DNA of 32,631 bases, taken from the NCBI GenBank assembly GCA_025360065.1, contig JANYCX010000178.1, positions 1 to 32,631 on the forward strand, read 5' to 3'. Below, in pieces: positions 17,719-32,602 of this stretch. The position numbers were made by a program, and so were the translations under genes. The notes under the pieces are model-generated. The model was not told where the DNA came from, did not search any database, and saw nothing but the letters and a program-made list of their open reading frames with translations. Source of the stretch: Acetobacteraceae bacterium. GTDB lineage: Bacteria; Pseudomonadota; Alphaproteobacteria; Acetobacterales; Acetobacteraceae. How positions within the stretch are numbered: the first letter of the stretch is position 1; each line of letters starts with the position of its first letter.

Positions 17719-18774
17719 CTAGAGCGTTGTCATATCCGCCCAAAACCGCTCGGGACCGCGCTCGGCGGCGGCGCGGCCAAGCACTAATGCCCATTCGGTT
17801 TCGCCGCCAAACTCGTCGCGCCAACTCCACAAACGCTTGGTGAAGTAATGCAGGCTGTGCTCGTAGGTGAAGCCAATCGCCCCATGGATGGCGTGGCCCA
17901 GGCTGGCAACTGTGCCGGCGGCTTCCCCACAGCGTACCTTTGCGGCGGCAATCGGCGTTAGTCCCATGCCGTGCCCAACCGCCTCGGCGGCAAGGTCAGC
18001 GGCCGCACTCGCCGCCGCGGTCTGGCTTGCCATGATCGCGAGGTTTTGCTGCACCGCCTGGAACTTGCCGATCGGTTTGCCAAATTGCTTGCGGTCCAGG
18101 GCATATTGCAAGGTGAGCGCCAGAATATGATCCATCGCCCCCGACATTTGCTGGCAACGCGCAGCAGCCCCCAGGCGCCGCAATTGCCCCGCATCAACCC
18201 CCGTCACGCCAACCGCCGCGCGCGGCACGACGGCATCGAAGGTCAGCCGATCACGCGGTTCGCGTGCCAGATTGGTGCTGATTGTGACCGTCCAGCCGCC
18301 CGACGGCACCATGGCAACCACCATCCCGTCCGGTCCTTCGGCCAGCACCGCGATCGCGCCGACCGAGCGGCCCCACGGAATGCGGCTCGCGGTGCCGCTA
18401 ATCCGCCATCCATCACCGTCGCGTGTCGCGAACAGGCTGTCCCCCGGCAGCACCGGGGCGACCGATAAAGTGCCGTCCGGGATGGCCAGTCCCGCCTGAG
18501 CCAGCAGCCAGCTTGCCATCATGGTTTCCGCCAGGGGCAGCGGCACCGCAGCCCCGCCAGCAGCCCGCAGGATCGAAAGGGCCTCAGCCGGATCGACCCC
18601 ATACCCGCCGGCTTCTTCTGGCACCAGCGCGCGGGTCAGCCCGGCATCTTCCACCGCAGCCCAGCCGGCTTGCGGCCAATGACCTGCTTCGACGGCGCCA
18701 AGATCGCGCGGCGCGAAGTGGTCGGCAAAGACCCGTGTCGCGGTCTCGCGCAGCATGTCGGTTTCTTCTGGCAA
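17719..18774 (-). CDS. Acyl-CoA dehydrogenase, smaller partner
   Basis: The 351-residue product is a shorter, more diverged acyl-CoA dehydrogenase. LTRALVPEEAGGYGVDPAEAL lies in the N-terminal domain. The C-terminal domain has ALDRKQFGKPIGKFQAVQQNLA and the conserved AIHGAIGFTYEHSLHYFTKRLW. A TTG start at 18774 is preferred: GGAGG lies eight bases upstream and the extra residues MPEETD match the usual N-terminus of this subfamily. An internal ATG at 18756 has no such site. It is the first gene of the minus-strand operon, divergent from mttB with 122 bases between the starts. Confidence 0.85.
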   Translation of the reverse strand: MPEETDMLRETATRVFADHFAPRDLGAVEAGHWPQAGWAAVEDAGLTRALVPEEAGGYGVDPAEALSILRAAGGAAVPLPLAETMMASWLLAQAGLAIPDGTLSVAPVLPGDSLFATRDGDGWRISGTASRIPWGRSVGAIAVLAEGPDGMVVAMVPSGGWTVTISTNLAREPRDRLTFDAVVPRAAVGVTGVDAGQLRRLGAAARCQQMSGAMDHILALTLQYALDRKQFGKPIGKFQAVQQNLAIMASQTAAASAAADLAAEAVGHGMGLTPIAAAKVRCGEAAGTVASLGHAIHGAIGFTYEHSLHYFTKRLWSWRDEFGGETEWALVLGRAAAERGPERFWADMTTL

Positions 18775-18896
18775 CCCTCATTCCTCCCGGCGGCAAATCC
18801 TGGCCGATGCTAACAGCTTCTTCGTGGTGGGGAAGCGCCTCGACATATGCCGGCCCGACGGGCAGGTTCCCGCCGAACGCAGGAAAGGAGAACCCG

Positions 18897-20447
18897 ATGA
18901 GTGACAGCGCCCCCAGACGCGGCGGACGCGCCGGCAGGGCTGGTCGCAGTGCCGGCAAAGGTCCGATCGAGCAGAAGCCGTTCCGCCAGCCGAGCCGCCG
19001 CTTTGCGCCGACCGATATCGTCTCCGCCGACGCGCTGGAGCGCATTCATCAGGCGTCGCTGACGATTTTGGAGGAAATCGGCATGGATTTCCTCGATGCT
19101 GAGGCGCGCGATATCTGTGTGAAAGCCGGCGCCACCGTCGCCCCCGGCACAATCCGGGTGCGCTTCGACCGCGCGATGATTGAAGCCGCAATCAAGACCT
19201 GCCCGCCTGAATTTACCCTGCACGCCCGCAATCCCGCGCATAACGTGCGGATGGGCGGGGACTGGCTGGCGTTTGCGCAAATGGCGAGCGCGCCGAATTG
19301 TTCCGACCTCGATAACGGCCGCCGGCCCGGCGCGCATGTCGATTACCAGAACCTGCTGCGCCTCGGCCAAAGCTTCAACATTTTGCATCTGACCGCCGGC
19401 TACCCGGTCGAGCCGGTCGATCTGCATGCCTCGACCCGGCACCTCGACTGCCTCGCTGATTTTGTCATGCTAACCGACAAGGCGTTCCATTTGTATTCGC
19501 TCGGCACCGCGCGGGTGCGCGACGGGCTGGAGATCACCCGGATCGGGCGCGGTATTACCGCGGCGCGGATGGATGCCGAGCCATCGGTGATGTCAGTTAT
19601 CAACTCGTCATCGCCGTTGCGCCTGGATGAGCCGATGTTGCAAGGCATGATTGAAATGTCGCGGCGCAATCAGGTGATCGTGATGACGCCGTTTACCCTG
19701 GCGGGCGCCATGGCCCCGGTTACCATTGTCGGCGCGCTCGCGCAGCAGAACGCCGAGGCTTTGGCGGGGATTGCCTTCACCCAGTTGGTCCGGCCGGGCG
19801 CGCCGGTGATGTATGGTGGTTTCACCAGCAATGTGGACATGAAATCCGGTGCGCCCGCCTTCGGCACCCCCGAATACATGAAGGCGCAAATGGTCGGCGG
19901 GCAGTTGGCACGGCGTTACCAAATCCCCTACCGCACATCAAATGTCTGTGCTGCCAACAGCGTCGATGCCCAGGCGGCGTACGAGTCAGTGTTTTCCCTG
20001 TGGGGGGCGGCGATGGGCGGCGGCAACTTGATCAAGCACGCGGCGGGCTGGCTCGAAGGCGGGCTGACCTGTTCGTTCGAGAAAACCATCCTCGACATCG
20101 ACCTGCTGCAAATGGTGGCCGAGTTTCTTGATCCGCTGGTGATCGACGATGATACGCTGGCGCTCGAAGCGGTCCGCGACGTCGGGCCGGGTGGGCATTA
20201 TTTTGGCACCCCGCACACCCAGGCGCGTTATACGAATGCGTTCTATGCGCCGATCCTGTCAGATTGGCGCAATTATGAAAACTGGGTGGATGCCGGCAGC
20301 CCGACGGCCGAGGTTAAGGCCAACAAAATCTGGAAGGACGTGCTGGCAGCTTATGAAGCGCCGGCGATTGATCCTGGGATTGCCGAGGAACTCGCGGCGT
20401 TTGTAGCGCGGCGGAAGGGCGAAGGCGGGATGAAGGTCGATTTTTGA
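18897..20447 (+). CDS. MttB-family methylamine-type methyltransferase without pyrrolysine
   Basis: MttB-type enzymes transfer a methyl group from a quaternary or tertiary amine to a corrinoid protein. The 516-residue product covers the family. RIHQASLTILEEIGMDFLDAE is near the start, PLRLDEPMLQGMIEMSRRNQ in the middle, and VGPGGHYFGTPHTQARYTNAFY near the end. No in-frame amber codon is present, so this is a non-pyrrolysine member; characterised ones act on glycine betaine, proline betaine or carnitine. The first 40 residues are Gly/Arg-rich and look disordered. AGGAAAGGAG directly before ATG 18897 fixes the start; a 158-residue in-frame extension upstream is rejected. No corrinoid protein gene is in the window. 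Confidence 0.87.
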   Translation: MSDSAPRRGGRAGRAGRSAGKGPIEQKPFRQPSRRFAPTDIVSADALERIHQASLTILEEIGMDFLDAEARDICVKAGATVAPGTIRVRFDRAMIEAAIKTCPPEFTLHARNPAHNVRMGGDWLAFAQMASAPNCSDLDNGRRPGAHVDYQNLLRLGQSFNILHLTAGYPVEPVDLHASTRHLDCLADFVMLTDKAFHLYSLGTARVRDGLEITRIGRGITAARMDAEPSVMSVINSSSPLRLDEPMLQGMIEMSRRNQVIVMTPFTLAGAMAPVTIVGALAQQNAEALAGIAFTQLVRPGAPVMYGGFTSNVDMKSGAPAFGTPEYMKAQMVGGQLARRYQIPYRTSNVCAANSVDAQAAYESVFSLWGAAMGGGNLIKHAAGWLEGGLTCSFEKTILDIDLLQMVAEFLDPLVIDDDTLALEAVRDVGPGGHYFGTPHTQARYTNAFYAPILSDWRNYENWVDAGSPTAEVKANKIWKDVLAAYEAPAIDPGIAEELAAFVARRKGEGGMKVDF

Positions 20448-21188: not shown

Positions 21189-22793
21189 ATGACCGCCCAA
21201 TTTCTCCCCGATCGCCGTGGCTTTCTTGCAATGGCCGGTGGTCTCGCCGCCGTCAGTTTCGCTGGCACCGCCAATGCGGCCCCGAAGCGGGGCGGCAAGC
21301 TGATTTATGGGCGCATCGCCGACAGCCTGTTTCTCGATCCGGTCCTGAACGATGCCAATGTCGATATCTGGGTGATGAACTCGATCTACGACACCTTGCT
21401 GTTCCCGACGGCTGACGGCACCGGCGTGCAGGCGGGTCTTGCCACCAAATGGGCGTTCAGCGATGCCGGCAAAACCCTGACGCTGACCTTGCGGGCCGGG
21501 GTGAAATTCTCCGACGGCTCCCCGATGACCGCAGGCGACGTAAAATGGTCGCTCGACCGCGCGCGCGACCCGAAAGCCGGGGCGTGGAACGATCTGATCG
21601 CCTCGATTGACGCGGTGACAGTCGCCGGCGCCGACACCGTCGTTTTGAAGCTGAAGCTGCCCGACCCGACCATTCTGGCCGCGCTTGCCACCTTCAACAC
21701 CGGCATCATGCCGCAGAAATTGTTCGAAGCCGCTGCTGGTGCAACGCCGGCCGACAAGGCCAAAGCCTTCGGCGAAAAGCCGGTTGGCACCGGGCCGTTC
21801 ATGCTGACCGAATGGAAGCGCAATCAGGTCATGCGGCTTGTCCGCAACCCGCATTATTGGCGTCAAGGCGAGGACGGCAAGGCGCTGCCGTATCTCGATG
21901 AACTCGAATTCCAAATCATCCCCGATGATTCGACCCGCATCCTCAAGCTCAAGGCCGGCGAACTGCATGGCAGCGAGTTCATTCCGTTGGCGCGGGTCAA
22001 GGAATTGCAGGGCGACAAAAACCTGCGCATGGAATTGTGGCCGTCAACCAAGGTTACTTATTTGTCGTTCATGGTGAAACCCAAACTCACCAACGGCACC
22101 GACAACCCGCTTGCCAACCTTAAAGTACGGCAGGCGCTGAACTACGCGGTCAACAAGGACGGGGTGATCGCCGTCACCACCTTGGGTCTCGGCAAGCCGA
22201 TGCGGTCCTATATGTCGTCCACCACGCCGTTGTTTGACGGCCCGGCGCCGCTCTATAAATATGACCTCGCCAAGGCCAAAGCGCTGCTGAAGGAAGCAGG
22301 CTTCGAGAAGGGCTTCGAGGTCACCTGCATGACAGTTGCTGGCAATCAGGATAACCTCAACAACATCACCGCCGTGCAGCAAATGTGGGCGGCAATCGGG
22401 GTCAAGCTCAAGATCGAGCCGATGGACAGCCCGTCGCTGACCAAGCGCTATCGCGCCGAGGATTTCCAGATGCGGACTGCCGCCTGGACCAATGATATCT
22501 CCGATCCCGGCCAGATCACCTCGTATTTTGCTTATGGCCCGAACATCAACGCGCTGCATTCGGGCTATAACGACGCCAAGCTGAACGAGCTTTATCTGGC
22601 CAGCCAGAAGGAAACCGATCAGGCCAAGCGGAAAGCCCAGTACAAGGAAATCCAGAAAATCTTCAACGACGCGGCGACTATCGTGTCGTTGTATGAAACG
22701 CCCTATACGGTGGCGTGGCGCAAGAATGTTGTGGGCTTCTCGCAAATCCCGCTCGGCAATAATTACTTTCAGGCGGTGAACATCGGCGCTTGA
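21189..22793 (+). CDS. ABC transporter substrate-binding protein, family 5 (peptide/opine/nickel type)
   Basis: This 534-residue periplasmic protein would capture the substrate of the importer encoded by the next four genes. The N-terminus DRRGFLAMAGGLAAVSFAGTANA is a twin-arginine signal, probably cut after residue 30. The mature protein shows the SBP_bac_5 layout: LTLTLRAGVKFSDGSPMTAGDVKWSLDRARD near residue 98, then KPVGTGPFMLTEWKRNQ near residue 198. Family 5 members bind peptides, opines, glutathione, nickel chelates or other amphiphilic compounds, so the ligand cannot be read off. Export in folded form through Tat is the likely route. Confidence 0.9.
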   Translation: MTAQFLPDRRGFLAMAGGLAAVSFAGTANAAPKRGGKLIYGRIADSLFLDPVLNDANVDIWVMNSIYDTLLFPTADGTGVQAGLATKWAFSDAGKTLTLTLRAGVKFSDGSPMTAGDVKWSLDRARDPKAGAWNDLIASIDAVTVAGADTVVLKLKLPDPTILAALATFNTGIMPQKLFEAAAGATPADKAKAFGEKPVGTGPFMLTEWKRNQVMRLVRNPHYWRQGEDGKALPYLDELEFQIIPDDSTRILKLKAGELHGSEFIPLARVKELQGDKNLRMELWPSTKVTYLSFMVKPKLTNGTDNPLANLKVRQALNYAVNKDGVIAVTTLGLGKPMRSYMSSTTPLFDGPAPLYKYDLAKAKALLKEAGFEKGFEVTCMTVAGNQDNLNNITAVQQMWAAIGVKLKIEPMDSPSLTKRYRAEDFQMRTAAWTNDISDPGQITSYFAYGPNINALHSGYNDAKLNELYLASQKETDQAKRKAQYKEIQKIFNDAATIVSLYETPYTVAWRKNVVGFSQIPLGNNYFQAVNIGA

Positions 22794-22824
22794 TGCGGCT
22801 TGGACCCGTGCGTCGCGGCGGCCG

Positions 22825-23763
22825 ATGAACCGGGGTAGTTGGCTCCTCGGTCGTCTCGCGCAAATCGTGCCGACTTTCCTGATGATCGGCATTGCTGTTT
22901 TCGTGCTCGCCCGGCTGCTGCCGGGCGATCAGGTTTCGGCAATGCTCGGCGAACGCGCGACGGACGAAACAATCGCCCGCTTGCAGGCCGAACTCGGGCT
23001 TGATCGGTCGATTTTTGAGCAGTTGCTGAACTTTCTAGTGGCGGCCGCGCAAGGTGAGTTCGGCACATCGATGTCATTGCGCCTGCCGGTCATGCAGGTG
23101 ATTGCCGAACGCCTGCCGGTGACATTGGCCTTGATGTCGATTGCCATGGTTCTCGCGTTGGCGATTGCCTTGCCGCTCGCCTTCGTTGCGGCCTTGAATG
23201 CCAATCGCTGGCCGGACATGCTGATCCGCACGGTGTTCCAGATCGGGCTGTCATCGCCGGTGTTTTACATCGGGCTGCTGCTGTTGACAGTGTTTGCCGC
23301 TGGCCTGCGCTGGTTCCCGGTCGGCGGCTACGGCGATGACTGGGGGGAGCATCTGTATCATCTGTTCCTGCCCGGCCTCACCTTGTCGTTCAGTTTTGCA
23401 GCCGTGGTGATGCGCAATTTGCGCGCGGGCATTCTGGCGGTGCTCACCGCCGAATATGTCGATTTCGCCCGCGCCAAAGGACTGGCGGCGGGCGTCGTGT
23501 TGGGCCGGCACGTGCTGCGCAATGCGCTGATTGCGACAGTAACGTTGGTCGGCCTTCATGTCGGCGCGTTGCTGGGTGGCGCGGTGATCACCGAAACCGT
23601 GTTCGCAGTGCCGGGGGTGGGGCGTTTGATGATCGATTCAATTTTGGCGCGCGATTATCCGGTGATCCAGGCGCTGACTTTGGTGCTGGCCGTTCTGGTG
23701 TCGTTGGCGTTTCTGCTGACCGATCTGGTGCAGATGTGGCTCGATCCGCGGGTTGGGCGCTGA
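22825..23763 (+). CDS. ABC transporter permease, DppB type
   Basis: The 312-residue membrane protein has six predicted helices and the DppB-type N-terminus (LAQIVPTFLMIGIAVFVLARLLPGD). The EAA loop that contacts the ATPases is ADFARAKG-like (YVDFARAKGLAAGVVLGRH, near residue 212). The C-terminal PGVGRLMIDSILARDYPVIQ is typical. It starts 31 bases after the binding-protein gene and its stop overlaps the next start (TGATG). Confidence 0.9.
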   Translation: MNRGSWLLGRLAQIVPTFLMIGIAVFVLARLLPGDQVSAMLGERATDETIARLQAELGLDRSIFEQLLNFLVAAAQGEFGTSMSLRLPVMQVIAERLPVTLALMSIAMVLALAIALPLAFVAALNANRWPDMLIRTVFQIGLSSPVFYIGLLLLTVFAAGLRWFPVGGYGDDWGEHLYHLFLPGLTLSFSFAAVVMRNLRAGILAVLTAEYVDFARAKGLAAGVVLGRHVLRNALIATVTLVGLHVGALLGGAVITETVFAVPGVGRLMIDSILARDYPVIQALTLVLAVLVSLAFLLTDLVQMWLDPRVGR

Positions 23764-24566
23764 TGCGGGTCTCCATCAGTCTGATCATCGGCAGTGTGTT
23801 GCTAGGCGCGATGCTGATCGCAGCAGCGGTGCCGGACTGGTTTGCCCCGTTCGATCCGCTGGCGTTTGATTACGATGCGCTGTCGATGCCGCCATCGGGC
23901 GAGCACTGGTTCGGCACCGATCAGTTCGGCCGCGATGTGCTGTCGCGCATCATCCATGCCGCCCGGGTGGATTTACAGATCGCGGTGTTCTGCGTGATTT
24001 TTCCGCTGGTGCTGGGCGGCGCGATCGGCCTGCTGGTTGGCTGGTACGGCGGCATCCTGGACGCGGTTTTTGGCCGGCTGGTCGATCTCGTCGTGACATT
24101 CCCGTTTCTGGTGCTGGTGATTTTCTTCGTCGCCGTGCTCGGGCCGGGGCTGGTCAATGTCTACATCGCGGTGACCTGCGTCGGCTGGGTGCCGTATGCC
24201 AAGCTGATGCGGGCCGAGGTGATGGTGCAGGCGCAAAGCGATTATGTCGCAGCCGGAAAAGTGCTGGGATATCAGATGCCGCGCATTCTGCTGCGCCACA
24301 TCCTGCCCAATGCCGCCCGCCCGGTGCTGGTCTATGCCGTCACTGACATGGCGCTGGCGATCCTACTGGGGTCGAGTCTCGGCTATCTCGGCCTCGGCGC
24401 CCAGCCGCCAACCGCCGAATGGGGGGTGCTGATCGCCGACGGCAAGAATTTTTTCACCACCGCGCCGTGGATGGCGCTGTTTCCCGGCTTGGCCATCGTG
24501 CTGGCCGGGCTTGGCTTCAGTCTGACCGGCGACGGCCTGGCCGATCTTTTGGCAGTGAAACGATGA
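23763..24566 (+). CDS. ABC transporter permease, DppC type
   Basis: This 267-residue permease pairs with the upstream one to form the channel. The DppC hallmark HWFGTDQFGRDVLSRIIHAARVDL lies at about residues 47-70, split here across its periplasmic segment. The EAA loop is SDYVAAGKVLGYQMPRI with HILPNAARP after it. The ATG at 23763 shares bases with the upstream stop codon, and the stop overlaps the ATPase start by four bases. A 27-base upstream extension in frame is only overlap with the previous gene. Confidence 0.9.
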   Translation: MRVSISLIIGSVLLGAMLIAAAVPDWFAPFDPLAFDYDALSMPPSGEHWFGTDQFGRDVLSRIIHAARVDLQIAVFCVIFPLVLGGAIGLLVGWYGGILDAVFGRLVDLVVTFPFLVLVIFFVAVLGPGLVNVYIAVTCVGWVPYAKLMRAEVMVQAQSDYVAAGKVLGYQMPRILLRHILPNAARPVLVYAVTDMALAILLGSSLGYLGLGAQPPTAEWGVLIADGKNFFTTAPWMALFPGLAIVLAGLGFSLTGDGLADLLAVKR

Positions 24567-25525
24567 CCGCGCTGTTGGAGGTATCGGATCTCGCGGTAGT
24601 TTTCCACACCAAGCGCGGGCCGGTGCATGCGGTCGATGGGCTCGGCTTCAGCGTCGAACGTGGGGAAGTGTTGGGCATTGTCGGCGAATCAGGCTCCGGC
24701 AAATCGGTCACTTTGCGCGCCATCACCCGGTTGCTGCACGGCGCCGAAGTCACTGGCCGGGTGAACTGGCAGGGCGAGGACGTTCTCGCCATGGACACCG
24801 AACGCCTGCGCCGGATGCGCGGCGGGCAGATCGGCATGGTGTTCCAGGAGCCGATGGCCGCCCTCAACCCGGTGCTGTCGATCGGCCTGCAAATCACCGA
24901 AACCTTGATCGCCCATACCCAGCTTGATGCCGCCGGGCGGCGGGCGCGGGCGCTCGAACTGCTCGATCTCGTGGGGATTGCGGCAGGACGCACCCGGCTC
25001 GCGCAGTTCCCGCATGAGTTTTCCGGCGGTATGCGCCAACGCGCAATGATCGCGATTGCGCTGGCCGCCAATCCGGCGCTGCTGCTGGCTGATGAGCCAA
25101 CGACCGCGCTGGACGTTACCATCCAGGACCAGATTTTGCGGCTGCTGCGCGGGCTGGTTGATGATCTCGGGATGGCGCTGGTGCTGGTGACCCATGATCT
25201 CGGGGTGATCGCCGAAACCTGCGACCGGGTGGCGGTGATGTATGCTGGCCGGCTGTGCGAAACCGGCGCGGTGGCGCCTGTCTTCGCCGCCCCGCGCCAC
25301 GCCTACACCAAGGCGCTATTGGGTGCGATGCCGGGGCAGGGCCAGGACGCGCTGGTTGCCATTCCCGGCATGGCGCCGCGGTTGGACGCGCCGGCGCTGG
25401 GCTGCGCCTTTGCCCCGCGCTGCGCCTTTCGGCTGCCGGTCTGCGATACCACCCGCCCGGCGTTGCGGGAATTCGGCCCGGCCCAGTCCAGCGCCTGCCA
25501 TGCCGCCGAGGCGCTCGCATCATGA
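24563..25525 (+). CDS. ABC transporter ATP-binding protein, DppD type
   Basis: The 320-residue ATPase energises the importer. Walker A is GESGSGKS (about residues 38-45), the signature is FSGGMRQRAMIAIAL, and Walker B is LLADEPTTALDVT. The C-terminal oligopeptide-transporter extension carries the cysteine-rich CAFAPRCAFRLPVC segment. The start at 24563 overlaps the DppC stop and the stop overlaps the DppF start, so translation is coupled throughout. Confidence 0.92.
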   Translation: MTALLEVSDLAVVFHTKRGPVHAVDGLGFSVERGEVLGIVGESGSGKSVTLRAITRLLHGAEVTGRVNWQGEDVLAMDTERLRRMRGGQIGMVFQEPMAALNPVLSIGLQITETLIAHTQLDAAGRRARALELLDLVGIAAGRTRLAQFPHEFSGGMRQRAMIAIALAANPALLLADEPTTALDVTIQDQILRLLRGLVDDLGMALVLVTHDLGVIAETCDRVAVMYAGRLCETGAVAPVFAAPRHAYTKALLGAMPGQGQDALVAIPGMAPRLDAPALGCAFAPRCAFRLPVCDTTRPALREFGPAQSSACHAAEALAS

Positions 25526-26502
25526 CAATCTTGCTGCAAGCCGAGGCGCTCACCAAGCATTTCCCCGGCCGACGTGGGCTGATCGACATGGCCCGCCGCA
25601 CGCCGCGCCCGGTGGTGCGGGCGCTGACCGGTATCACCCTCGACATTCGCGCGGGCGAAACCCTCGGCATTGTCGGGGAGTCCGGCTGCGGTAAATCCAC
25701 CCTGGCGCGCTGTCTGGTCGGGCTGCATCCGCCTGATAGCGGCGCAGTTCGGTTTGAAGGCGCCGACTTGGCCGGCATGTCCGGCGGCGACACGCTCGGG
25801 TTTCACCGCCAGGTGCAAATGATCTTTCAGGACCCCTACGGGTCGCTCAATCCGCTAATGTCGGTTGGCGACACATTGTCCGAGGCGCTGGCGGTCCATA
25901 ACATCGTGCCGAAAGCGGCCATCGCGGCGCGCGTCACCGAATTGCTCGCCATGGTGCATTTACCGCCTGATGCGGCGGGGCGCCGCCCGCATGAATTCTC
26001 CGGCGGCCAACGCCAGCGCATCGGCATTGCCCGCGCGTTGGCGGTTGAGCCCAAGATCATCGTCGCCGACGAACCGGTTTCAGCACTCGACGTCTCGGTG
26101 CAGGCGCAGATCGTTAACCTGCTGCTCGAACTGCGCGCCCGGCTGGGGCTCACCTTGGTATTCATCACCCATGATCTGCGGCTGGTCCGGCACATGACCC
26201 AGCGCGTGGCGGTGATGTATCTTGGCCGCATTGTTGAGCTTGGCCCGACCGCCGATCTGTTTGCCGCGCCACGCCATCCCTACACCCGCGCCCTGCTGCG
26301 CGCGGTGCCCCAGCTTACCCCCGGAATGCGTGGGCGCGACGCGGCGGTGCGCGGGGAATTGCCCAGCCCGCTGGCGCCGCCGCCGGGCTGCGCGTTCCAT
26401 CCGCGCTGCGGCATTGCCGAGGCGGGGTGTTCGGTGTCGGTTCCGGTTTTAAGCGAGCGGAACGGCGACTGGCCGGTGGCGTGTTTTTTGGCGGAAGGGT
26501 GA
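25522..26502 (+). CDS. ABC transporter ATP-binding protein, DppF type
   Basis: This second ATPase of 326 residues completes the heteromeric importer. It has Walker A GESGCGKST, signature FSGGQRQRIGIARAL and Walker B IVADEPVSALDVS. The C-terminal extension again carries a cysteine cluster (CAFHPRCGIAEAGC). The start codon at 25522 overlaps the preceding stop. Hairpin copy 5 begins ten bases after the stop and probably ends the operon. Confidence 0.92.
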   Translation: MTILLQAEALTKHFPGRRGLIDMARRTPRPVVRALTGITLDIRAGETLGIVGESGCGKSTLARCLVGLHPPDSGAVRFEGADLAGMSGGDTLGFHRQVQMIFQDPYGSLNPLMSVGDTLSEALAVHNIVPKAAIAARVTELLAMVHLPPDAAGRRPHEFSGGQRQRIGIARALAVEPKIIVADEPVSALDVSVQAQIVNLLLELRARLGLTLVFITHDLRLVRHMTQRVAVMYLGRIVELGPTADLFAAPRHPYTRALLRAVPQLTPGMRGRDAAVRGELPSPLAPPPGCAFHPRCGIAEAGCSVSVPVLSERNGDWPVACFLAEG

Positions 26503-28066: not shown

Positions 28067-29158
28067 TTGACGCTGCAACACGGCGCGATTGACTGCGATA
28101 TTCACCCGACGGTGCCGTCGGTGCGCGACCTACTGCCCCATCTGGAGCCTTACTGGCGCGAGCATATTCTGCGCCGCGGGCTGGAACGCGATAATTTCGA
28201 CATTTCGGCCTATCCGTCCGGCTCGCCGTTGACGTCCCGGCCCGATTGGCGCGGCGCGGGCGGCTTGGCGGCAACCAATCTTGCGTCCATCCAGGCGCAA
28301 TTGCTCGACCCGTTCCGCCCATCGGCGGCAATCTGCAACGTGCTGCACGGCGCGCAGATGATGATGAGCGAGGATCTGTCGCTCGCGCTATGTCGCGGCA
28401 TCAATAACTGGCTGATCGCCGAATTTCTTGACCGCGATCCACGCCTGCGCGCTTCGATCACTGTGCCAATCCATAGTGCCGAGCTTGCTGCCGAAGAAGT
28501 CGAGCGCCTCGCCGGCGATCAGCGCTTCGTGCAGGTATTGCTGCTGGCGATGGCGGAAGTCCCGCTCGGCCGGCGCCAGATGTGGCCGCTTTATCGGGTC
28601 GCGGAAAAATACGGCCTGCCAATTGGTATTCATGCCGGATCGAGCTTCCGCCATCCGCCGAGTGCGGGGGGCTGGGGGTCGCTCTATCTCGAAGATTACG
28701 TGTCGTTCGCGCAAGGCTTCGCTGGCGCGCTGAACTCGCTGCTTGCGGAAGGGGTGTTCCAGAAATTCCCCGACCTCAAAGTGGTGCTGATCGAGTCGGG
28801 CGTGACCTGGATGCCGGCCAGCATGTGGCGCATCGACAAGACCTGGCGCGGGGTGCGCTCCGAAGTGCCATGGCTTGCGCAACTGCCGACCGAGATCATC
28901 CGCGACCGGGTGCGGATGACCTTGCAACCCTTTGACGCGCCGCCCGATGTCGCGGCGGTGACGCGGGTGCTGGAACAGCTCGGGTCCGATGACATGCTGC
29001 TATTTTCGACCGATTACCCGCATTGGCAGTTTGACGGAATGGACGCCCTGCCCGATGGCCTGCCACCGGCGCTGATCCAGAAAATCCTGTTCGACAATCC
29101 GCGTGCCACCTACCCGCGCCTCGCCGCCCTCCACCCTGTTGGGGAAACCACATCATGA
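28067..29158 (+). CDS. Amidohydrolase-family TIM-barrel hydrolase, first copy
   Basis: This 363-residue protein belongs to the amidohydrolase 2 group (PF04909 type), metal-dependent hydrolases and decarboxylases. The N-terminal metal motif is DCDIHP (Asp11, His13): the first histidine of the usual HxH is Asp, as is common in this branch. Later ligands are probably His189 in GIHAGSS and Asp316 in FSTDYPHW. The start is a TTG at 28067 with AGGGAAA about nine bases upstream; no ATG or GTG lies in frame after the upstream stop at 28034. The stop overlaps the next start (ATGA). Its substrate is unknown. Confidence 0.85.
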   Translation: MTLQHGAIDCDIHPTVPSVRDLLPHLEPYWREHILRRGLERDNFDISAYPSGSPLTSRPDWRGAGGLAATNLASIQAQLLDPFRPSAAICNVLHGAQMMMSEDLSLALCRGINNWLIAEFLDRDPRLRASITVPIHSAELAAEEVERLAGDQRFVQVLLLAMAEVPLGRRQMWPLYRVAEKYGLPIGIHAGSSFRHPPSAGGWGSLYLEDYVSFAQGFAGALNSLLAEGVFQKFPDLKVVLIESGVTWMPASMWRIDKTWRGVRSEVPWLAQLPTEIIRDRVRMTLQPFDAPPDVAAVTRVLEQLGSDDMLLFSTDYPHWQFDGMDALPDGLPPALIQKILFDNPRATYPRLAALHPVGETTS

Positions 29159-30267
29159 ACGTCATCGCGCCCGAACGCCGTGCCGATCCGCAAGCCCAGG
29201 CCCATCTCGGCTTCATCGATTGCGACGTGCATCCCTTCGTGAAATCAGGCGCGGATTTTGATCCGTTTTTGTCCGAACGCTGGCGGGCACATCGCCAGTC
29301 CATCGGTGGCCGTTCGCGCCAGGGTCTCGGGCGCGGCACCGCCTATCCACGCATGTCGCCCGGCAACGGGATGCGCATGGATGCCTGGCCCAAGGGTGGC
29401 GGCATGCCGGGGTCCGATCTCGCGCTGATGCAGGAGCAATTGCTCGATTTATTTAACGTCGAATATGGCCTGCTCGCGCCCTTGGTCGGCGGTGCCGCGG
29501 GGGAACGCAACGTCGATTTCGCCGCCGCCATGGCAATCGCAGTCAATGAATGGCAAGTCGCCAAATTCTGCGACCCCGAGCCAAGGCTCAAAGGCTCAAT
29601 CCAGATCACCCTAGAACATGAAGCCGCCGCCATCGCCGAAATCGAGCGCTGGGCCGGTGACAAACGCTTCTGCCAGGTCAATATCGCGCCGCGCGGTCTC
29701 GAACCGCTCGGCCGCCGCCGCTATCGCAAAATCCTTGCCGCCTGTGCCGCTAATGGTTTCCCGATCTCGCTCCATCTCGGCGGCACCAGCGGGCACGCCT
29801 CAACCGGCGGCGGCTGGCCATCGTTCTATCACGAGGAACACCCGTCTTACGTCCAGACCATGCAAACGCTGGTCACCAGCCTGGTCTGCGAGGGGACGTT
29901 CGAGGAAATTCCCGACCTCAAAGTTGTGCTCGTCGAAGGCGGCTTCGCCTGGGTGCCGGCCTTGTCGTGGCGGCTCGACCGCAACTGGAAGCGCCTTAAG
30001 GCCGAAGCGCCGAGCTTGACCCGCGCGCCGTCCGACTATGTCCACCAGCATTTCTGGGTCACCACCCAGCCGATCGAAGAACCCGAACGGCCCGATGACA
30101 TGCTGGCGATCCTCGATTGGATCGGGCCAGACCGGGTTATGTTTTCGACCGACTACCCGCATTGGGACCAGGACGATCCGCGCTACGCCTTCAAGGTCAA
30201 ACTGCCCGCCGACTGGAACCGGATGATCTTCCGCGACAACGCGCGCGCGCTGTATCGGCTGGACTGA
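29155..30267 (+). CDS. Amidohydrolase-family TIM-barrel hydrolase, second copy
   Basis: The 370-residue product is a paralogue of the preceding gene with the same order of motifs: DCDVHP (Asp24, His26), SLHLGGTSGH (His207) and MFSTDYPHWDQDDP (Asp333). Both copies contain a stretch like FQKFPDLKVVLIESG or FEEIPDLKVVLVEGG before a Trp-rich segment. Tandem retention with coupled translation suggests two subunits of one enzyme or two successive steps. The stop overlaps the Rieske start (TGATG). Family is clear; reaction unknown. Confidence 0.86.
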   Translation: MNVIAPERRADPQAQAHLGFIDCDVHPFVKSGADFDPFLSERWRAHRQSIGGRSRQGLGRGTAYPRMSPGNGMRMDAWPKGGGMPGSDLALMQEQLLDLFNVEYGLLAPLVGGAAGERNVDFAAAMAIAVNEWQVAKFCDPEPRLKGSIQITLEHEAAAIAEIERWAGDKRFCQVNIAPRGLEPLGRRRYRKILAACAANGFPISLHLGGTSGHASTGGGWPSFYHEEHPSYVQTMQTLVTSLVCEGTFEEIPDLKVVLVEGGFAWVPALSWRLDRNWKRLKAEAPSLTRAPSDYVHQHFWVTTQPIEEPERPDDMLAILDWIGPDRVMFSTDYPHWDQDDPRYAFKVKLPADWNRMIFRDNARALYRLD

Positions 30268-30656
30268 TGGCCAAGCACGTCGTTGCACGCGCCAGCGAAA
30301 TCCCCCCTGGCCACCGCAAAATCGTTAGCGTCCGCGGCCGCGAAATCGGCATCTTCAACCTTGGTGGCGAATTCTTCGCGCTGTTCAACCGTTGCCCCCA
30401 CCAAGGCGCGGCGCTGTGCACCGGCGAAATCGTCAGCCGGCTCGAATCCACCATTCCCGGCGACTATCGCCTAAGCCGGCCCGGCGAAATGCTGCGCTGC
30501 CCCTGGCATTGCTGGGAATTCGACATTCGCACCGGGCAATCCTGGTGCGAACCCAATTCGGTCCACGCCAGGACCTTCCCGGTCACCACCGAACCGCTGG
30601 CCGCCGAAACTGTCGATGTTACGATCGCCGAGCGCTACGTGGTGGTGATCCTTTAG
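30267..30656 (+). CDS. Small Rieske [2Fe-2S] protein with a long inter-motif insertion
   Basis: The 129-residue protein is a single Rieske domain. The cluster ligands are Cys43 and His45 in CPHQ and Cys78 and His81 in CPWH. The gap between the two motifs is 32 residues, about twice the usual 15-17, and reads as an inserted loop (SRLESTIPGDYRLSRPGEM). No oxygenase catalytic domain follows, so it should act as an electron carrier or a partner domain. It shares bases with the preceding stop codon and ends the three-gene operon. No ferredoxin reductase or oxygenase subunit is in the window. Confidence 0.88.
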   Translation: MAKHVVARASEIPPGHRKIVSVRGREIGIFNLGGEFFALFNRCPHQGAALCTGEIVSRLESTIPGDYRLSRPGEMLRCPWHCWEFDIRTGQSWCEPNSVHARTFPVTTEPLAAETVDVTIAERYVVVIL

Positions 30657-30662
30657 CGCCGC

Positions 30663-31649
30663 CTAAGCCGCCGCTGCCGAAAATGCCGCAAGCCCGTGCT
30701 CCACCGTCTCGCGGTCCAAGTCCTTGGTAATGAACACAATCCGGCTGGTGCGCGGATCGCCCTCGGGCCAAGCCGGCAGCAAATCCGGCGGGTGAAACAT
30801 ATGCTGGATGCCGTGGATCGCCACTGGCCGGTCCTGGCCGACGAGGTTCAAAATCCCCTTCACCCGCAACAGGTTTTCGCCCCGTGTGCCGATCAACATC
30901 TCCAGAAACGTGCCGATGCCCTGCCAATGCAATGGTTCGGCGAAGGTCAGGCAAAAACTGTGGATCGACGGATCGTGGCGCGGCGTGTCGTCGGCAAAGG
31001 CAGCCTCGTTGATCCAGGCCGCAACATCGCGCGGCTTGCCGGCGAGATCGAACAGCCCACAATCGAGAATTTCCACCGGATCGAGCGCGCCCTTGGTCGC
31101 CACCAGCAGCTTCACGCCAGGATTGATCGCGCCAATCCGCTGGCGCAGCGCGCTGACATCGGCGGCCAGATCGGTCTTGCTCAGCACAATCCGGTCCGCC
31201 ATTGCCACTTGGCGCAACGCTTCCTGATGCGCATCTAACTGCCCCATCGCATGCACCGCATCAACCACCGTGACAATGCCATCGAGCCGGTAATGCAACG
31301 CCACTCCAATATCGCCCAGCAGGCTTTGCACGATCGGCGCTGGATCGGCGAGGCCAGTGGTTTCCACCACCACCCGATGCACCGCGCCGGCCGCAATCCG
31401 TGGCAGCAAGTCGCGCAACGCCCGCAGCAGATCGCCACGCACCGCACAGCACAAACACCCAGATGGCAACAACGCGGTATCATCATCCAACTTGTCGACC
31501 AGGATGTGATCGATCCCGATATCGCCGAACTCGTTAACCAGCACCGCCGTTCCTGCCATCGCCGGATGGCGCAAAATCGCGTTCAGCAATGTGGTTTTGC
31601 CCGCGCCGAGAAACCCGGTCAGCACGGTTACCGGGGTCAAATCAGCCAT
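30663..31649 (-). CDS. COG0523 GTPase, CobW/ZNG1 family, probable zinc chaperone
   Basis: The 328-residue G3E GTPase has Walker [10 protein letters not shown] (residues 12-20), the metal-binding CLCC motif (Cys65, Cys67, Cys68), the switch segment [12 protein letters not shown], and the base-recognition SKTD. A CobW C-terminal domain completes it. COG0523 members insert or deliver Zn, Co or Ni. Next to a Zur-like regulator and the zinc enzyme HisI, zinc is the likeliest metal. The first eight bases overlap the hisI 3' end, so translation is coupled. It converges on the Rieske gene with six bases between. Confidence 0.88.
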
Positions 31650-32034
31650 GCTTGTGGCCGTACAACTGCGCCGGATCGATTAACGGTGCTGCAATTTCGA
31701 CCAACTCGCCATCCCGCGCCGCCCGGTAAAAACAATTCCGCCGGCCGGTGTGGCACGCCACCCCGTCCTGATCGACCAACAACAAAATCGTGTCGCCATC
31801 ACAATCGAGGCGCAAATCCACCAGACGCTGGCGCTGCCCCGAGGTTTCGCCCTTGCGCCAGAGCTGCCCGCGGCTACGGCTGAAATAACACACCTGCCCG
31901 GTGGCCAACGTCTCGGCGACCGCATCGCGGTTCATCCAAGCCAGCATCAACACCTCCCCGGTATCATGCTGCTGCGCCACCGCCGCCACCAAACCGTTTT
32001 CGCCAAACCCGATGGCATCAAGTATATCCTGCAT
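31642..32034 (-). CDS. hisI: Phosphoribosyl-AMP cyclohydrolase
   Basis: HisI opens the adenine ring of phosphoribosyl-AMP, the third step of histidine synthesis, and needs zinc and magnesium. The 130-residue product has the Mg site DCDGD (Asp77, Asp79, Asp81), the zinc cysteines Cys78, Cys94 and Cys101 ([11 protein letters not shown]), and the substrate segment [16 protein letters not shown]. The ATG at 32034 matches the family start; a longer frame to 32067 would run into the zur start. No other his gene is nearby. It may be the only copy or a zinc-starvation paralogue, which the window cannot settle. Confidence 0.88.
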
Positions 32035-32065
32035 CCGACAAGCCCTAAGTTGGAGCGGCACATCC

Positions 32066-32602
32066 ATGGAGACCGCGTTTTCCGCCCATACTACGGCGGC
32101 CCTCGATCACGCCAGCCTGCTCTGCGCGCGCACCGGCGGCAAGCTCACGCCGCTGCGCCGCCAAGTGCTCGGCCTCATCCTCGAAAGCCCGGCACCGGTC
32201 GGCGCCTACGACCTGCTCAACCAACTCCGCACCAACCGCGCCGCATCCGCCCCGCCCACAATCTACCGCGCGCTCGAATTCCTCCGCGAACACGGACTCG
32301 TCCACCGCATCGAACGCCTCGCCGCCTTCATCGGATGCGTCGACGCCGAACCCCATGACCACCCGGCACAATTCCTCATCTGCCGAACCTGCCACCGGGT
32401 CACCGAACTCGATGACCACAACCTCGCCCACGCCCTCACCGACGCAGCCCGAAGACTCGGGTTCACCATGTCGGGGGCCACGATCGAGGCTGAGGGGTTG
32501 TGCGCGGAATGTGGGGTCAAGGAAGCAAGTGCCGGGGCGCTGCCCCAGACCCCGCCAGGGCCGGGCCCTGGACCCTATCCCAAGAAAGCAAAGTCGGAAT
32601 GA
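32066..32602 (+). CDS. zur: Fur-family transcriptional regulator, probably Zur
   Basis: This 178-residue regulator has a winged-helix domain ([24 protein letters not shown], then [20 protein letters not shown]). The dimerisation domain carries structural zinc cysteine pairs Cys106/Cys109 (CRTCH) and Cys146/Cys149 (CAECG). IYRALEFL and the CRTC spacing favour Zur over Fur. GGAG ten bases before ATG 32066 supports the start. It is divergent from hisI with only 31 bases between. An odd Pro/Gly-rich tail of about 25 residues follows CAECG and is encoded by a GC-rich repeat. The Zur call leans on the neighbouring hisI and COG0523 genes. Confidence 0.82.
32534..32571. repeat. GC-rich double hairpin inside the 3' end of zur
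   Basis: Two adjacent palindromes occur here: GGGGC-GCT-GCCCC (32534-32546) and CCAGGGCC-G-GGCCCTGG (32555-32571). Their type (CGCTGCCCC...CCAGGG) is familiar from intergenic DNA of Acetobacteraceae. Here they lie in frame and encode part of the Pro/Gly tail of the regulator. They may also act as a terminator stem. The last 29 bases of the window hold nothing else recognisable. Confidence 0.55.

Follow-up and report, generated by a model that had tools for sequence, protein, structure and literature searches.

The window analyzed here is a 32,631-nucleotide stretch of contig JANYCX010000178.1 from an Acetobacteraceae bacterium (GenBank assembly GCA_025360065.1), and it carries a cassette of three overlapping genes, H1, H2, and a Rieske gene. 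We put the probability at roughly 90% that the three encode a two-subunit monooxygenase of the amidohydrolase-related dinuclear oxygenase (ARO) class together with its dedicated Rieske ferredoxin, an assignment made from homology, metal-ligand mapping, and gene order. A preliminary description of this DNA had recognized 2 paralogous TIM-barrel proteins of the amidohydrolase 2 family, encoded in overlapping reading frames with a Rieske protein of one domain, which the open reading frames (ORFs), the sequence, and Pfam confirm: Amidohydro_2 (PF04909) matches H1 with an E value of 5.7e-48 and H2 with 6.5e-48, the Rieske family matches the third protein (E = 2.1e-14), and the junctions read ATGA between H1 and H2 (29155-29158) and TGATG between H2 and the Rieske gene (30265-30269). 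The overlaps may keep the three products in fixed proportion, as the preliminary description suggested. No NCBIfam model was matched by H1 or H2, and the Rieske protein gave only sub-cutoff ferredoxin or NirD-type matches; PADLOC, a search for defense systems, returned nothing for any of the three.

The same description considered the system possibly new, but a system with this composition plus a reductase, AibH1H2GF, was characterized in 2021 as the 2-aminoisobutyric acid (Aib) monooxygenase of Rhodococcus wratislaviensis (PMC7782822). As reported there, AibH1 and AibH2 form a heterotetrameric hydroxylase, AibG is a Rieske ferredoxin, AibF is an FMN reductase, AibH1 is mononuclear, and whole cells yield no product without H1, H2, G, or F. 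According to PMC10401708, AibH2 requires a Mn/Fe pair and is less active when D342 is replaced with Ala. Work published in 2023-2024 showed that proteins like AibH2, with a Rieske gene next to their own, make up a widespread class (PMC10401708, PMC10811679), Rieske genes co-occurring with AibH2-like genes at 90% (PMC10401708); PMC10811679 named the class ARO and extended it by looking for Rieske genes next to those of PF04909 proteins. The class is young; its enzymes cleave strong C-H bonds, some with a Mn/Fe cofactor, and few of their natural substrates are known.

A predicted dinuclear oxygenase of two subunits

H2 has AibH2 as its best match in the PDB (E = 9.1e-88, about 40% identity), AibH1 being weaker (E = 1.7e-41). 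When the ligand positions named in PMC7782822 and PMC10401708 were mapped by pairwise alignment, the 6 dinuclear ligands of AibH2 (D25, H27, H211, E265, D337, and H340) were all found in H2, as D24, H26, H207, E261, D333, and H336, and the second-sphere aspartate D342 corresponded to H2 D338. Conservation was assessed in an alignment of the loci described below, from which fragments shorter than 300 residues were left out (one of H1; seven of H2, from L041, L066, L067, and L079). Every H2 row (68/68) keeps H207, E261, D333, H336, and D338, and 67/68 keep D24 and H26; the exception, L066, is a frame-split record. H2 is broken over 2 frames in L066, L067, and L079, through either decay or sequencing error. 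In a set of 41 sequences reaching Rhodococcus and haloarchaea, the 6 ligands are invariant and D338 is at least 90% conserved. The predicted H2 model has a mean predicted local distance difference test (pLDDT) score of 83, and its first 20 PDB matches are chains of AibH1H2, SfbO, or other solved AROs, PtmU3 coming 21st.

H1 pairs with the other Aib subunit: its best PDB match is AibH1 (E = 2.2e-78), with AibH2 weaker (E = 4.1e-55), and the mononuclear-site ligands of AibH1 (D24, H26, H201, E255, and D328) correspond to H1 D11, H13, H189, E243, and D316. The first two and D316 are kept in 68/68 H1 rows, H189 in 67/68, and E243 and a further residue, H319, in 66/68. Changes at these positions are confined to L070 and L079, both of which have E243 replaced by D and H319 by R, with H189 also changed to Q in L070. 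That ligands have changed in H1 and not in H2, bar the frame-split L066, fits H2 as the catalytic subunit, and from these residues H1 is predicted to have a structural role and to bind a single metal.

The cassette thus resembles AibH1H2GF in its pair of PF04909 subunits with a Rieske ferredoxin encoded after them and in carrying the same ligands subunit by subunit (Table 1); the Rieske protein is likened to AibG by its position and family. In R. pseudokoreensis, which has a close relative of AibH2 (682 bits), the order is H1-H2-Rieske-PDR/VanB reductase. By analogy with these systems, H1, carrying one structural metal, would be needed to form a heterotetramer with H2, whose TIM barrel would hold 2 metals (Fe/Fe or Mn/Fe) on the 6 ligands listed above. 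The metal pair would reduce O2 and insert one oxygen atom into a small molecule at a C-H bond, and the Rieske protein would pass single electrons to it from a reductase that uses NAD(P)H and whose gene lies elsewhere.

Table 1. Positions of the cassette and of associated features in the window.
Feature	Position	Strand	Evidence
H1, AibH1-like PF04909 subunit (363 residues, TTG start)	28067..29158	+	Pfam, best PDB match, ligand mapping, conservation
H2, AibH2-like PF04909 subunit, predicted to be catalytic (370 residues, ATG start)	29155..30267	+	Pfam, PDB match, ligands, model
Rieske [2Fe-2S] ferredoxin, AibG-like by position (129 residues, ATG at 30267)	30267..30656	+	Pfam, sequence, spacer, predicted fold
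32-residue stretch from C-x-H to C-x2-H, predicted long beta-hairpin	30402..30497	+	sequence, 2QPZ alignment, spacer comparison, model
Family-5 ABC importer; two minus-strand ORFs lie between it and the cassette	21189-26502		

Other dinuclear enzymes of the family are less similar in organization. SfbO and further single AROs (8SM6-8SM9; PMC10811679) share the fold, the dinuclear ligand set, and an adjacent small Rieske protein with the window's system, but are described there as single proteins, whereas the window has an H1-H2 pair. SfbO W341 corresponds to W337 of H2, and the sulfate-binding residues R232, R235, and N67 of SfbO align with H229, Y232, and R66. No sulfonate pocket of the SfbO type is predicted for H2. 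H229 and Y232 are candidate pocket positions, at which AibH2 has His and His. PtmU3 of the platensimycin pathway (6OMP), described in PMC10401708 as lacking a partner subunit, shares the PF04909 dinuclear hydroxylase fold but is distant (E = 1e-14). An Aib monooxygenase in the strict sense was rejected as an identity for the cassette, since it differs from AibH1H2GF in lacking an adjacent AibF, an amino acid permease, and Aib catabolic genes, the Aib operon partners AibF, AibT, AibC, AibD, and AibE not being beside it.

That the 3 genes belong together, as had been proposed, is supported by the neighborhood comparison. Among 70 loci (68 seeded with H2, plus 2 more cassettes of the window's genome), 65 have H1, H2, and the Rieske gene in this order on one strand, more than chance would give; in the exceptions, the Rieske gene is on the opposite strand (L072), H1 is missing (L080), or there is one PF04909 gene (L081, L082, and L084). 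Thirty high-scoring H2 loci from 200 sampled Acetobacteraceae genomes include 29 with at least 2 PF04909 frames and 25 in which a Rieske gene lies no more than about 1.5 kb away. Pairwise distances of the 3 proteins correlate across 64 cassettes (r = 0.87-0.92; 0/999 permutations as high), a correlation that could also come from common descent alone. By record title, the loci belong mainly to Acetobacteraceae and other Alphaproteobacteria, and 84 of 200 sampled Acetobacteraceae genomes match H2 at an E value of 1e-40 or better, many of them several times with H1 paralogues counted. The window's genome (3.7 Mb, 91.8% complete) itself holds 2 further H1-H2-Rieske cassettes, on contigs C61 (L005) and C110 (L086). 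The window thereby adds an ARO clade centered on Acetobacteraceae.

Several observations weigh against the monooxygenase assignment. A complete set of metal ligands is not in itself proof of an oxygenase, and the heterotetramer, the O2 chemistry, and the direction of electron flow are suggested by homology. The H2 model is of low confidence at residues 213-228, which adjoin the ligand H207, and in 5 of the 30 high-scoring H2 loci (L232-L236) a Rieske gene is absent from the surrounding 1.5 kb or so. Because a sixth residue, H319 (in DYPH), is retained in the 66 H1 rows counted above, ligands alone do not account for the difference between a mononuclear and a dinuclear site. In the window, no AibF-type reductase gene adjoins the cassette. 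A search of the genome found a single PF00175 protein, which is PaaE-like (TIGR02160, 395.4 bits versus a cut-off of 420.8) and adjoins a PaaA/PaaC-family gene, and a single PF14759 reductase, whose gene neighbors encode a P450 and a Fer2 ferredoxin. As no reductase dedicated to the cassette was found in this incomplete genome, the Rieske protein probably shares one. We treat an adjacent AibF as a trait of the Aib operon and not as one that defines the class: the portion of PMC10401708 that we draw on gives co-occurrence figures for Rieske genes (90%) and permeases (40%), with no figure for reductases.

The retention of H319 beside the 5 AibH1-type ligands would also suit an arrangement in which H1 and H2 are both catalytic dinuclear oxygenases, acting on different substrates or in successive steps. 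We regard this as very improbable. At the position equivalent to AibH2 D342, the window's H1 has Q, and the residue in 66/68 H1 rows is H (48), Q (12), or N (6); D occurs there only in L082 and L084, which are single-subunit AROs. H1 ligands have changed in 2 lineages (L070 and L079), and AibH1, the closest solved protein, is reported to be mononuclear (PMC7782822).

We give almost no credence to a redox-hydrolytic unit along the lines of the preliminary description, in which 2 hydrolases or decarboxylases would act on nitrogen-containing substrates and the Rieske protein would serve a separate oxidation step; PMC10811679 does describe the other characterized PF04909 enzymes as cofactor-free or one-metal proteins that are not oxygenases, and decarboxylases appear among the PDB matches of H2 from rank 10 on, but the best of them reaches an E value of 3.6e-11, far weaker than the AibH1H2/SfbO-type matches (9.1e-88 to 2.2e-41), the dinuclear ligand set of an oxygenase is complete and conserved in H2, and the cassette has no separate oxygenase gene. 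A mononuclear PF04909 decarboxylase of the ACMSD or 2,6-dihydroxybenzoate decarboxylase type was rejected on the same E values. An "amidohydrolase family protein" and a "Rieske protein" annotated in one operon are a trap of this kind, and are better read as a monooxygenase.

The long spacer of the ARO-linked Rieske proteins

The third protein had been called unusual, and it is so in one definable respect. Its cluster ligands are C43 and H45 (C-x-H) and C78 and H81 (C-x2-H), with 32 residues between the motifs. Aromatic dioxygenase Rieske ferredoxins (2QPZ, BphA3, and CarAc) share the Rieske fold, but 2QPZ aligns with a 16-column gap, the spacer being 16 residues longer than in the dioxygenase ferredoxins. 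In the predicted model (mean pLDDT 88), the spacer forms a long hairpin, with strands at residues 54-63 and 66-77, on an ordinary Rieske fold.

Within the window's genome, the 3 ARO-linked Rieske proteins all have a spacer of 32, and the other 5 have 16, 18, 16, 16, and 21. Across 71 loci, the window's own copy included, the spacer is 32 in 70 of 75 Rieske genes, 34 in one (L084), and 16 in four. These four are second, separate Rieske genes, each directly 3' of a long-spacer one, in Afipia/Xanthobacteraceae-type cassettes (L069, 4575-4895; L073, 11597-11917; L074, 11587-11907; L075, 11557-11877), where the second Rieske protein is perhaps an electron relay. All 25 Rieske genes adjoining the H2-seeded, high-scoring Acetobacteraceae loci have a spacer of 32. 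Plasmid-borne examples agree: 8 ARO-linked Rieske proteins, from Mesorhizobium, Rhodococcus (3), Haladaptatus, Rhizobium, Sinorhizobium, and Paracoccus, have spacers of 32 or 33 (the first 8 of 15 loci were counted; L098, L099, L100, L102, and L103 were aligned only), and a Mesorhizobium plasmid ferredoxin not linked to an ARO has 16. Among the 8 is the R. pseudokoreensis protein, with 33.

A wider table was compiled from 84 loci after dropping 10 duplicates, 2 edge cases, and L132, whose motif is not Rieske-like, with AROs looked for within about 1.5 kb on each side where the sequence extended that far. It contains 30 long-spacer genes, 25 of them with an ARO nearby, and 41 short-spacer genes, none with an ARO, although this sample is not unbiased, most long-spacer genes having been found with the window's Rieske protein as the query, and the own-genome and H2-seeded counts are the fairer ones. 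Long spacers in this table are of 32 residues except for 36 in L162 and 37 in L125, both with AROs, and short ones are of 16-21 residues except for 28 in L134. The 5 long-spacer genes without an ARO (L182, L183, L184, L185, and L186) lack one even in stretches of 8-12.5 kb, L184 starting near a contig end, so that the long spacer is not exclusive to AROs. In L186, a phosphotriesterase-family gene directly follows the Rieske gene.

A profile of ARO Rieske proteins matches 34 PDB sequences at E values of 0.001 or less, and no ARO ferredoxin is named among them. We met no description of the long spacer in the portions consulted of the 3 ARO papers (PMC7782822, PMC10401708, and PMC10811679), and it may be known. 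We tentatively suggest, without thinking it the likelier outcome, that ARO Rieske proteins are a distinct ferredoxin family whose hairpin docks onto the oxygenase, and that the cassette is one of many such modules acting on undescribed substrates with a shared reductase. As a simple mark in the sequence, the long spacer could help to find more AROs.

A 535-residue protein encoded beside the ARO-free Rieske gene of L182 (4830-6437) was considered as a new partner of such proteins and rejected, as only 2 of 20 loci have a Rieske gene of this kind nearby, one of them L182 itself (L189). The protein family, with a member in L183 (6676-8277), is present in 21 of 200 Acetobacteraceae genomes; it has no Pfam or NCBIfam match, and its only PDB hit is at chance level (E = 0.48).

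The importer and other neighboring genes

The preliminary description also raised the possibility that the cassette acts on a compound taken up by the family-5 ABC importer encoded upstream; the two would then make up one catabolic locus for its oxidation. The importer lies only 1.6 kb from the cassette, and some other loci show a comparable arrangement. In L045, a family-5 binding protein and 2 permeases (27-40% identical to those of the window) are encoded directly upstream in the orientation of the cassette, and ATPase-like matches lie beyond them; the C110 cassette of the window's genome is adjoined upstream by a divergent family-5 binding-protein gene. A binding protein like that of the window (25-29% identity) is found in 8 of 68 loci, in 7 of them at most 5 kb from the cassette, and PMC10401708 reports the 40% co-occurrence of permeases with AibH2-like genes mentioned above. 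Against this, two minus-strand ORFs separate importer and cassette in the window, and L018, with an H2 97% identical to the window's, has in its 21 kb no importer protein bar a 54-residue ATPase match. Such a binding protein is absent from the examined stretch of 60 of the 68 loci, many of these stretches being short, and window-like permeases occur in 3 of 68. Binding-protein genes are only some two times as frequent within 5 kb (7 loci in 551 kb) as at 5-10 kb (2 loci in 337 kb), on numbers too small to decide. L045, the C110 cassette, and seven other loci speak for a link to the importer, L018 and most loci speak against it, and we consider a single catabolic locus unlikely.

Downstream of the C110 cassette lies an SBP_bac_6/1-type binding-protein gene, followed by ORFs that by eye resemble permease and ATPase genes. 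In the window, a gene of the MTTB (trimethylamine methyltransferase) family at 18423-20447 is just upstream of the importer's binding-protein gene, and the importer might serve a methylated amine.

Other neighbors of the cassette recur within limits. Pfam searches of 56 nearby ORFs, hand-chosen, mostly adjacent, and taken from a simple GC-frame gene call, found no family in more than 3 of the 56 (among the 25 of 70 families listed). The commonest neighbor, a carboxymuconolactone-decarboxylase-like ORF after the Rieske gene, is present in 13 loci, all with an H2 63-67% identical to that of the window, and the next neighbor clusters occur in 7, 7, and 6 loci. As the recurring neighbors are clade-limited and none is general, no substrate is proposed from them.

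Among the loci encoding single-subunit AROs, 3 have an ARO and a small Rieske protein beside a betaine-aldehyde dehydrogenase: L095 (Sinorhizobium meliloti pSymA), L096 (Paracoccus seriniphilus, in which the gene is a short aldehyde dehydrogenase ORF), and L104 (Pseudohalocynthiibacter). All 3 have a gene for a hybrid-cluster NAD(P)-dependent oxidoreductase near the ARO, and L095 and L104 carry a YeiH-family or "putative sulfate exporter" gene. This context suggests that the product of these AROs may be betaine aldehyde and the substrate a trimethylammonio sulfonate or sulfate, for example, taurobetaine or choline-O-sulfate.

Within the window, the genes adjoining the cassette encode a DUF1295 protein and, by Pfam, proteins of the CobW, PRA-CH, and FUR families. 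The block for the CobW GTPase, PRA-CH, and the FUR-family protein lies 3' of the cassette at 30663-32602. The same block is present, inverted, in L021 (6441-8403), whose H2 is 79% identical to that of the window, and it could represent shared synteny or a link to metal supply.

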